From the NCBI RefSeq assembly GCF_007004665.1, contig NZ_ML660052.1, forward strand, positions 992,001 to 1,056,000: a stretch of 64,000 bases of DNA, in the 5' to 3' direction. Below are positions 37,251-40,026 of the stretch, piece after piece. Source of the DNA: Denitrobaculum tricleocarpae (GTDB taxonomy: Bacteria; Pseudomonadota; Alphaproteobacteria; Kiloniellales; Kiloniellaceae). The translations under genes and the position numbers were made by a program. The stretch's first letter is position 1. Every line of letters begins with the position of its first letter. The notes beneath the pieces were generated by a model. That model was not told the origin of the DNA. It was given only the letters and a program-made list of their open reading frames with translations, and ran no database searches.

Positions 37251-38009
37251 TTAGCCGCGTCCCACCAAGGGCATCTTGGTCGCCATCACGGTGATGAACT
37301 GAATGTTCACGTCCAGCGGCAGGCCCGCCATATGCACCACCGCATCCGCCACATGCTTGACGTCCATGGTCGGTTCGACCGCCATGGTGCCGTTGGCCTG
37401 CGGCACGCCGACGGCCATGGCCGTGGTCATGTCGGTGGCTGCGTTGCCGATATCGATCTGTCCGCAGGCAATGTCGAAGGGCCGCCCGTCCAGTGACGTG
37501 GACTTGGTCAACCCGGTGATCGCGTGTTTACTTGCGGTGTAAGGCGCTGAGCCGGGACGCGGAGACTGGGCGGAAATCGAACCGTTGTTGATGATCCGTC
37601 CCCCCATCGGTTTCTGGCGCTTCATCATCTTGAAGGCCTCGCGGGTACAGTGAAACGCACCCGTCAGGTTAACGCTGATCACGGTGGCCCACTGTTCGGG
37701 GGTGATCTCGTCAGGTGTCAGGGGCGGCACATTGGTGCCCGCGTTGTTGAAAAGAACGTCCAGGCGTCCGAATTTTTGCTCGATCTTGGAAAAGAGGCTG
37801 GCAACATCGTTGGCATTACCGACATCGCAGGTCACGGCGAGCGCCGGTGTTTCGGTGGCGCCCGCTTCCTTGATGCTTTCCTCCAGGGGGCGGAGCCGGC
37901 GGCCCGTCAGGACTGTTGCATAACCGGCCTTCAGCAGCGCCATGGCGGCGTGTTTGCCGATTCCGCTTCCTGCACCGGTCACCAGTGCGACTTTATGATC
38001 CGCCGTCAT
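37251..38009 (-). CDS. SDR-family oxidoreductase
   Basis: 252 aa. Rossmann [12 protein letters not shown], structural NNAGT, catalytic Ser in [10 protein letters not shown] and YTASKHA. The closing segment is not the usual DGG but [22 protein letters not shown], typical of a subgroup of SDRs annotated without known substrate. It stands alone between an orphan ParA and the NPC-repeat lipoprotein gene. Confidence 0.88.
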
Positions 38010-38185: not shown

Positions 38186-38237
38186 AAAAGAAACGGCGGC
38201 AGCCCCTGTTTCGGTGTCACAGAGTCTGCCGCCGTTT
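38182..38237 (-). terminator. Intrinsic terminator downstream of the NPC-repeat gene
   Basis: On the minus strand, AAACGGCGGCAG (38237-38226) pairs perfectly with CTGCCGCCGTTT (38202-38191), followed by CTTTTTCTC. The 12-bp stem has a 23-base loop and lies about 150 bases past the stop of the lipoprotein gene. Confidence 0.7.
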
Positions 38238-38385
38238 ATGGCTGCTGCGTATGAATACCGGTCCGGACCGATTTGTGCGCGTTGGGTTCAACCGCTTTCT
38301 CTGACCCATTCGAACGCGCTGTGCCTTGCAAGCGCTGATTCAGATGGGGCTTCGAATAAATACCTTCGTTTGAACGTGAAGCGCG

Positions 38386-38778
38386 CTAGCTCGCTGCGCA
38401 GGGGTTCTTCTTGGCTGCGCAGGGATTGCAAGGGTTGCAGGGGTTCTTTGCCGCACAGGGGTTTTTCGCAGCGCAGGGATTGCAGGGGTTCTTGGCAGCG
38501 CAGGGGTTACAGGGGTTTTTCGCTGCACAAGGATTGCACGGGTTCTTGGCGGCGCAGGGGTTGCAGGGATTGCAGGGGTTCTTGGCGGCGCAGGGATTAC
38601 AGGGATTACAGGGATTACACGGGTTCTTCGCCGCACAGGGGTTGCAAGGGTTGTAGCCTTTGTCCTTGCCCTTGCTGGCGCAAGCGCTCAGCAGGGTTGC
38701 GCTGGCCAGTGCCACGCCGCCCATGATGACGTTCCGGCGGCTGGTGGACGCAAGCATTTTCGTTTTCTGTGTTGTCAT
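38386..38778 (-). CDS. Tat-type lipoprotein made of Asn-Pro-Cys repeats
   Basis: 130 aa. The N-terminus has a twin-arginine motif ([11 protein letters not shown]), a hydrophobic stretch and a lipobox (LLSAC) at Cys33, so the mature 98-residue protein should be lipid-anchored at its first Cys. After a short SKGKDKGY linker, residues 43-130 consist of 20 NPC triplets in runs of 1-4, separated by AAK. Adjacent triplets create 11 CNPC (CxxC) motifs; the mature protein is about 21% Cys and has no His. Synonymous codons vary between repeats, which argues for selection on the protein. Metal binding or thiol buffering in the periplasm is plausible but unproven; I know no named function. It is monocistronic with its own terminator. 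Confidence 0.88.
38392..38655 (-). repeat. Coding tandem repeat (NPC / AAK units)
   Basis: A 9-base unit for Asn-Pro-Cys, interspersed with a 9-base unit for Ala-Ala-Lys, fills most of the lipoprotein gene. Third-base differences (AAC/AAT, CCC/CCT) show that the copies are not freshly duplicated. Slippage-driven length variation is expected. Confidence 0.9.
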
Positions 38779-39075
38779 GGATAGAAGCTCCTGAATTTCA
38801 TTGGCCCGCCTTCAAAAAACAGAAACAGCCTCAGAATCTGTCGTCCGGTCGGGCATTCGCCACATAAACAAATGAGAACAGCTCTCGGGTATGCGCCGCA
38901 GAGCGCGACGACCCGGGCAGTCTCCAAGTTCAGGTGAATGCGAGCAAATCAGGTCTCAACACAAAAGCGTGACATTAAGTGAGCCGTTCCCGATTCCTCG
39001 CGCAAATACGGACCACTTGGCTGGAGAGCAAGCTGATCGGTAACTTGACGAAAAAATCGAGAAGGATCCGGACGA
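38779..39075. other. Intergenic region upstream of the NPC-repeat gene
   Basis: Holds the promoter of the lipoprotein gene and the 3' flank of cysQ. No further gene, repeat or clear site is seen. Confidence 0.4.
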
Positions 39076-39948
39076 TCAGCCCTCAGTTTCAGCGCTTTCG
39101 AAACCTGCATCCAGATGAACCCCCTCGGCGATGAAGTCGGGGTTTTCGAATCCGGCCTTGCCGTAGTCCAAAGGCTCGTTCTCCAGGGTCCAGACGTCAC
39201 CGCCGGCGGCCAGCAATACCGCGTGCCCGGCAGCGGTGTCCCATTCCATGGTACGCCCGAAGCGCGGATAAAGGTCCGCTTGACCACTCGCCACCAGACA
39301 GAATTTGAGTGAGCTGCCTGCGGTTACCCGATCGTTGATCTTGCGGCTGGCCAGGAATTGCTCGAGTTTTTCGCCGGTGCCATGGCGGCGGCTCGCGACG
39401 ACGGTCGCACCCTCGTCCGGGATTTCCCGAACCGAGATCTTCATGGGCGGGTTGTCGGTTTCCGAGAAGTTGGCCGTGCCTTCTCCTGCGCCGGTCCAGG
39501 TCATGGCCAGCGCCGGCGCATGAACGACGCCTGCGACCGGCACACCGTGCTCAATCAGCGCGATGTTGACGGTGAATTCGCCGTTGCGCGAAATAAACTC
39601 CTTGGTGCCGTCGAGGGGATCGACCAACCAGAAGAAATCCCCGTCGATTTCCGGGATCTCACCGGCAGACGCGGCTTCTTCCGATACCACCGGAATGTGC
39701 GGCGTCAGTGTGTTGAGGGCGCCCAGGATGAAGGTCTCGGCGGCTTCGTCTGCATCGGTCACCGGGGAGGCATCGTCTTTCTGGCGCACCGTAATCTCTT
39801 CGGCGTCGACGTAATACTGCAGGATGACCTTGCCCGCCCGCTCGGCGATTAGCCGCAGTGCGGCCATCAGATCATCGCTTTCTGATTCTTCGGAAGATGC
39901 CGGGCGCACCGCGGCTGCCGATATCGCCTCGTCGGTCTTGTCGCTCAT
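39076..39948 (-). CDS. cysQ: 3'(2'),5'-bisphosphate nucleotidase CysQ
   Basis: 290 aa inositol-monophosphatase-fold phosphatase. It shows the Mg-binding motifs VSEEA (EE), WLVDPLDGTKEF (DPxDGT) and the C-terminal WDTAAGHAVLLAAGG. CysQ hydrolyses PAP, the by-product of sulfate activation, to AMP. The N-terminal 30 residues are an acidic, Ser-rich extension beyond the usual fold. ATG 39948 is preferred to GTG 39957. It is 78 bases downstream of the CoxL-like gene on the same strand. Confidence 0.92.
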   Translation of the reverse strand: MSDKTDEAISAAAVRPASSEESESDDLMAALRLIAERAGKVILQYYVDAEEITVRQKDDASPVTDADEAAETFILGALNTLTPHIPVVSEEAASAGEIPEIDGDFFWLVDPLDGTKEFISRNGEFTVNIALIEHGVPVAGVVHAPALAMTWTGAGEGTANFSETDNPPMKISVREIPDEGATVVASRRHGTGEKLEQFLASRKINDRVTAGSSLKFCLVASGQADLYPRFGRTMEWDTAAGHAVLLAAGGDVWTLENEPLDYGKAGFENPDFIAEGVHLDAGFESAETEG

Positions 39949-40026
39949 CGCTGTCACTTTGCGTCTGCGGGCTCAGCTGCAATAAAACCGGGCCTGGTGA
40001 TCCATGGCCCGTTTCTAACGGCTTCT

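Follow-up and report, generated by a model that had tools for sequence, protein, structure and literature searches.

What use does a bacterium, probably a marine one, have for an exported protein composed almost wholly of Asn-Pro-Cys (NPC) and Ala-Ala-Lys (AAK) triplets? The question is raised by a gene on the minus strand at 38386..38778 of the window, that is, of the whole 64,000-nucleotide stretch of Denitrobaculum tricleocarpae DNA analyzed here, for which the open reading frame and its translation give 130 residues plus a stop codon, from ATG to TAG. Residues 1-32 form a signal peptide (38683..38778, minus strand), with the same layout in three orthologues. It holds a twin-arginine pair, R14 R15 (38734..38739, minus strand), in the sequence SRRNVIM, which reads as a Tat-like motif under the rule for such signals. 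Next comes a lipobox, LSAC (38680..38691, minus strand), whose Cys33 is the predicted lipidation site and has Ala at the +2 position; by the +2 rule this residue would sort the lipoprotein to the outer membrane. The earlier note, made from the DNA letters, had recognized both the twin-arginine-type signal and the lipobox Cys, and this holds up well, with RR and LSAC kept in 4/4 orthologues. The genome also encodes TatC, and with RR motif, lipobox and TatC all in place the protein is probably exported by the Tat-type route.

The array itself (38389..38652, minus strand) comprises 20 NPC and 8 AAK units and contains 20 Cys. A script count reproduced the figures given in the earlier note: 20 NPC units, 11 CxxC motifs (every one of them CNPC), 21 Cys and no His in a mature protein of 98 residues from the lipobox Cys, 92 of which are C, N, P, A or K. 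After a first gap of 12, which is the linker, the Cys-to-Cys gaps (n = 20) are 3 or 6, with a single 7 at the C-terminal AAKK, and 19 of the 20 are multiples of three. No other part of the window comes close to this composition: it has 290 open stretches that reach 90 aa or more, and the richest 90-residue stretch holds 20 Cys in the lipoprotein versus 12 in the next-best frame.

At DNA level the array contains tandem repeats of 9-54 bp, matching at 64-100%, and a DNA-slippage artefact was considered and rejected because the protein is constant while the codons vary, eight different codon combinations being used among the 20 NPC units. A misread frame was also rejected, since competing frames, such as 38214-38726 on the plus strand and 38340-38636 on the minus strand, lack an export signal by eye. 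The gene is present at the same place in all four genus genomes searched, including the host genome (6.4 Mb, 34 contigs). It lies between an upstream gene for CysQ, a 3'(2'),5'-bisphosphate nucleotidase (39076..39957, minus strand; TIGR01331, 289.3 bits against a cut-off of 228.8), and a downstream SDR oxidoreductase gene (37251..38009, minus strand; PF00106), in a conserved order that likewise takes in XdhA-like, ParA, Sua5 and FAD-oxidase genes; CysQ and SDR are context here and are not claimed as parts of the system. Over the six orthologue pairs, aligned post-signal codons show 29-38 synonymous versus 0-4 nonsynonymous differences per pair, counts that are biased towards conservation because repeat alignment favours the pairing of like units. 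By eye, the nonsynonymous differences sit in the linker, ahead of the first NPC, and the repeat units are intact NPC or AAK save AAKK and a terminal AAS. The arrays differ in length by whole units. Judged by these comparisons, the gene is real and under selection at the protein level, as the conservation of the repeat across differing codons had first suggested.

Additionally, a block of about 30 bases, GTCACG(A/C)TTTTGTGTTGARACCTGATTTGC (38944..38973, minus strand; 166-195 bases before the start codon), is nearly unchanged in an upstream DNA alignment of the four genus genomes while the surrounding DNA differs, and is possibly a promoter or operator. It has one match in the host genome when up to 3 mismatches are allowed (none for the control), and a single control motif shared with the two other NPC genes of this genome, described below, was rejected on that ground; the upstream DNA of those two genes is conserved in blocks of its own. 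Carriage as mobile-element cargo was rejected as well, there being no match in a plasmid collection and no exact NPC pattern match in viral contigs.

Known families offer little guidance. Searches of Pfam and NCBIfam gave no credible model match (best E 0.17), including no metallothionein or Csp model and, at E<=1, no DUF2282 or related bufferin model; the protein has no CxxCH and no match to PF21342 in Pfam, the marks of a SoxA/TsdA-type haem domain. Metallothioneins and Csp copper-storage proteins are also Cys-rich, but the lipoprotein differs from them in its NPC layout and matches neither family model. One possibility, put forward in the earlier note, is that the chain is an unmodified thiol sponge, whose cysteines would bind Cu(I), Zn(II) or Cd(II) or buffer periplasmic oxidants. 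The 21 Cys in 98 residues, which sustain the earlier proposal of a thiol-rich module, and the lack of a recognized folded domain speak for such a sponge; the missing metallothionein, Csp and DUF2282 matches speak against it, and on the whole evidence, including that given below, we judge it rather unlikely.

The lipoprotein is not alone. Two more NPC/AAK proteins, of 123 aa and 392 aa, are encoded 3.4 kb apart on another contig of the host genome, C6. Both carry ordinary Sec-type signals by eye, so the family as a whole is not bound to export by Tat. The C-terminus of the larger resembles cytochrome P460 (PF16694, 26.8 bits, just under the cut-off of 27), a domain that is here fused to NPC arrays and that the lipoprotein lacks; a PDB sequence search with this paralogue alone gave a best E of 0.21, and one with the P460 fusions reached the P460 entry 7s5o at E 0.013. 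The C6 cluster (L009:8161-13145; about 36-41 kb on C6 of the host genome, G000) contains the two NPC genes and genes for DUF302, Sulf_transp (YeeE/YedE-like), DUF6969 and a nuclease-like protein.

In a family search, close matches of the lipoprotein were confined to the genus. The pattern NPCAAKNPC, however, was found by a pattern scan in at least 118 stretches of other genomes, a count that includes several from one genome, neighbours on one contig (L114 and L126) and the orthologue L067 itself. By record titles, about 96 of the 118 listed stretches are from Pseudomonadota (Alpha-, Beta-, Gamma- or unspecified), and the others are from Rokubacteria, Nitrospinota, Tectomicrobia, Deltaproteobacteria, two cyanobacteria, one Bacillota, one Acidobacteria and one untitled bacterium. 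The earlier note had allowed for a sequence without homologues in any relative, or with a repeat often broken by frameshifts; orthologues in four genus genomes and this wider NPC family dispose of the first worry, and the genus orthologues show no frequent frameshifts. A script extracted 149 NPC frames from 116 of the 118 listed stretches. Of 1461 Cys gaps counted across 93 NPC loci, 1170 are multiples of three, a proportion to be read with the collecting pattern in mind, which itself favours a spacing of 3 or 6. Eight short NPC frames from other genera carry signals unlike that of the lipoprotein, and a loose pattern picks up lipobox-like NPC forms elsewhere (e.g. L048, L091). Two cyanobacterial lipoproteins (L091:2137-2784 and L127:2643-3266) combine NPC-like units with a thioredoxin-like domain (by Pfam for L091). 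At G254:C4:45027-45107, an 18-bp DNA repeat mimics the NPC pattern and has an in-frame TAG inside. Since the array occurs alone or fused to haem or thioredoxin domains, it is a module, of which the lipoprotein is the predicted lipid-anchored, stand-alone form. We propose to define the family by tandem NPC and AAK-like units that come after an export signal, a definition that fits the lipoprotein.

A clue to the function of this module is its company. In a clustering of the neighbours of NPC loci, DUF6969 ranked first: an HMM finds it in 53 of the 118 listed loci, mostly as the gene that comes next on the same strand. In 42 of the 53 the nearest NPC frame is upstream on the same strand (median gap, 108 bp); of the 26 listed loci that have 2.5 kb on both sides, 12 have DUF6969. 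The host genome has one DUF6969 gene (C6:38519-39124, E 8.7e-81), between its two other NPC genes; none is adjacent to or near the lipoprotein gene. In a class sample of 289 alphaproteobacterial genomes, separate from the 118 stretches though species may overlap, DUF6969 is present in 62. These include 26 of the 27 genomes with at least two NPC pattern hits versus 36 of the 262 others (Fisher p 7e-19, computed over genomes that are not phylogenetically independent). The 27 were chosen by pattern-hit counts, with G254 dropped for the TAG in its repeat, and the sole one without DUF6969 is G029, whose assembly is in 810 contigs and has 7% contamination. DUF6969 is present in 10 members of a phylum sample (n = 269 genomes, some shared with the class sample); there, 13 genomes with close NPC hits, picked by eye as at least two within about 500 bases on one contig, divide into 6 with DUF6969 and 7 without, six of the 7 belonging to one family. 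The association is therefore strong within Alphaproteobacteria and partial outside the class, and possession of DUF6969, a trait of the host genome that we include in the family description, is not universal among NPC genomes.

DUF6969 also stays while the repeat changes. Among 29 DUF6969 genomes without a pattern hit, 27 were read (G056 and G093 were left out as partial matches), and in 9 of these a secreted-looking Cys-repeat protein lies within about 2.5 kb of DUF6969, its units being NPC variants or of other kinds (GAC, CSPC, GCCAAE, CGGSHAGD); the CGGSHAGD, GCCAAE and CSPC types do not hold the Cys spacing of 3 or 6. Examples are CGGSHAGD units at L161:4687-5073, GCCAAE units at L175:4679-4975, GAC units together with P460 at L168:1612-2793 and L190:5748-7046, and CSPC units at L171:4755-5174. 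At L173:2661-2816 a short repeat frame of the PCKGKAPCKGSAP type, with no visible export signal, precedes DUF6969 on the same strand by about 150 bases. At 17 of the 27 loci no Cys-repeat neighbour was seen, two of them, L174 and L178, lying on short contigs or at the end of these, and eight of those 17 DUF6969s group together in a quick tree (support 83).

An alignment of 35 DUF6969 rows (of the 46 then found) has 27 invariant columns, of which six are His (positions 56, 74, 76, 85, 87 and 119 of L038:7029-7781), and no export signal visible by eye. A PDB sequence search found no relative (best E 0.21), and no publication naming DUF6969 was found in the open-licence literature, which is weak evidence of absence. 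For a thiol sponge, DUF6969 would have an independent role, in regulation or thiol metabolism; the occurrence of NPC repeats without DUF6969 is consistent with that, but the tight pairing is left unexplained.

A secreted Cys-rich protein encoded beside a dedicated partner calls to mind the bufferins or oxazolins, described in PMC12452194 as Cys-rich RiPPs modified by MNIO enzymes, with secreted precursors, some of many repeats, encoded beside the modifying metalloenzyme, many of them in Pseudomonadota. The NPC system has the same outline, with secreted Cys-containing products, some many-repeat, and a putative enzyme encoded alongside. It differs in that DUF6969 takes the place of the MNIO enzyme and that there is no DUF2282 match, in a comparison that covered Pfam and NCBIfam models. 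Furthermore, MNIO is not in the same cluster: the host MNIO matches lie on C14 and C10, and the NPC genes on C1 and C6. Over the 289 class genomes MNIO occurs in 111, including 7 of the 27 NPC genomes versus 104 of the 262 others, and dependence on MNIO was rejected for want of any MNIO-NPC link.

What the chain might carry can be approached through the haem domains fused to NPC arrays in sister proteins. By haem content, the 149 NPC frames comprise 38 with a SoxA-like pattern, 16 with a P460 pattern, 16 with another CxxCH and 79 with none; by eye, several of the 16 others are SoxA-like or P460 forms that are truncated or variant. SoxY is the sulfur carrier of the Sox pathway, and by analogy the NPC array could be a multi-Cys arm that takes sulfane sulfur, thiosulfate-derived groups or electrons from SoxA/TsdA- or P460-type haem domains. 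Besides the number of such fusions, this carrier role draws on PF21342, above its cut-off in 3/3 SoxA-like NPC proteins tested (NPC cytochrome L036 is under it, at 15.1 bits), and on a profile of 24 SoxA-like NPC proteins that matches SoxA 1h31 at E 5e-5, with the SoxA Cys aligned to a Cys invariant in 24/24 rows. This likeness to the Cys-ligated cytochromes SoxA and TsdA has its limits: the sister haem domains are flanked by NPC arrays and score far below the NCBI SoxA cut-off (23-31 bits against 110), MauG-like di-haem proteins match the NPC-cytochrome profile nearly as well as SoxA does, and the lipoprotein has no haem domain. P460 proteins, moreover, are associated with hydroxylamine or NO chemistry.

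The recurring neighbours bear on both the carrier and the sponge. By tblastn, Sulf_transp (YeeE/YedE-like) is found in 17 and DUF302 in 14 of the 118 listed loci, and both are in the host C6 cluster; DUF302 and YeeE genes lie within Sulfitobacter sox clusters (PMC11034169), and the host genome has SoxA-type and SoxZ matches, all of which would suit a sulfur carrier. SoxZ, however, is present in 9 of the 27 NPC genomes versus 62 of the 262 others, which is no clear link, and a crude search of 165 loci gave no TusA motif and one SoxY-like C-terminus (L165), unlike SoxY by eye. On these grounds a simple Sox accessory role was rejected, and we hold the broader carrier role to be improbable. A sponge finds support in TVP38-type, MerA-like disulfide-reductase-type and ECF sigma genes (11, 9 and 13 of the 118 listed loci, respectively), but a crude motif search of the 165 loci showed a P-type ATPase motif in only 5 and no RND or CopC signature, and its 14 GMxCxxC metal-chaperone-like matches proved to be haem motifs in NPC frames. 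The genomic context appears somewhat to favour sulfur or redox over classical copper efflux; because SoxZ does not clearly track the NPC genomes, we do not choose between metal and sulfur as cargo.

Three further groups of neighbours deserve mention. The gene at L013:5910-6368 and nine relatives encode a conserved exported family beside NPC genes, marked by invariant Cys and the motif SCPLN. A single member matches Cupredoxin_1 weakly, under the cut-off, inspection by eye does not make out the usual His/Met ligands for copper, and a PDB sequence search with the cupredoxin-like neighbour gave a terpene synthase as best match (E 0.019). FGE-sulfatase-like proteins (L094:2986-3840 and relatives), with distant matches to EgtB/SenA/OvoA models, lie near NPC and DUF6969 genes in 16 of the 118 listed loci. 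Five-CxxCH cytochromes resembling c554/MtrC (L098:2011-3195, L064:6738-8000 and relatives) are near NPC genes in 15, frequently at loci in which the search gave no DUF6969.

In the open-licence literature, searches for the NPC repeat as sequence and for Cys-rich P460 or SoxA proteins gave nothing relevant, and a search for Asn-Pro-Cys repeats led to CdeC of the Clostridioides difficile exosporium, a Cys-rich protein with a 6-NPC repeat and redox-sensitive self-assembly, as reported in PMC7677010. On that analogy, the array could oxidize to disulfides and cross-link into an envelope layer, and an outer-membrane lipid anchor would fit a coat. CdeC, however, belongs to a spore structure of a Gram-positive bacterium, and a structural role leaves the haem fusions and the DUF6969 pairing unexplained; we regard it as very unlikely.

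The reading that we prefer, tentatively and at a little under even confidence, is that the Cys repeats act as polythiol chains in the envelope after being matured or loaded with the help of DUF6969, and that the lipoprotein is one such product. Its working part would be a Cys chain held in register, in which Cys recurs at intervals of three or six residues, for the most part as CNPC, and the cysteines may line up along an extended helix of the three-residue type, which offers such a register. Secreted Cys-repeat proteins made together with DUF6969 would then constitute a widespread system. DUF6969 may work in the cytoplasm as a metal-dependent maturation factor, modifying the cysteines of the repeat, or loading them, ahead of export; the copy on C6 would serve the lipoprotein. 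Once exported, the chain would bind or relay a soft ligand in the periplasm, whether a copper-type metal, sulfane sulfur or electrons, and the haem domains fused to the sister proteins would act on that ligand there.

A bolder form of this maturation proposal, which we advance with more reserve, is that DUF6969 proteins are metal-dependent enzymes of a new class, which would modify or load Cys in NPC, GAC, CSPC and other repeats before export, as an independent counterpart of the MNIO/bufferin pairing. The chains, whether free, lipid-anchored or joined to haem domains of the SoxA-like or P460-like kind, would carry out sulfur or metal chemistry of the envelope that has yet to be described.

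The theme of secreted Cys-rich proteins matured by dedicated enzymes is known, if recent, from MNIO and the bufferins. What is new here is DUF6969 as the partner of NPC Cys-repeat proteins, a second and apparently separate pairing that extends over Alpha-, Beta- and Gammaproteobacteria and in which many of the Cys-repeat polypeptides also contain haem domains. Should DUF6969 prove to be an enzyme, a large number of hypothetical genes would gain a testable function; if it is not, the pairing still marks an envelope system that awaits explanation.
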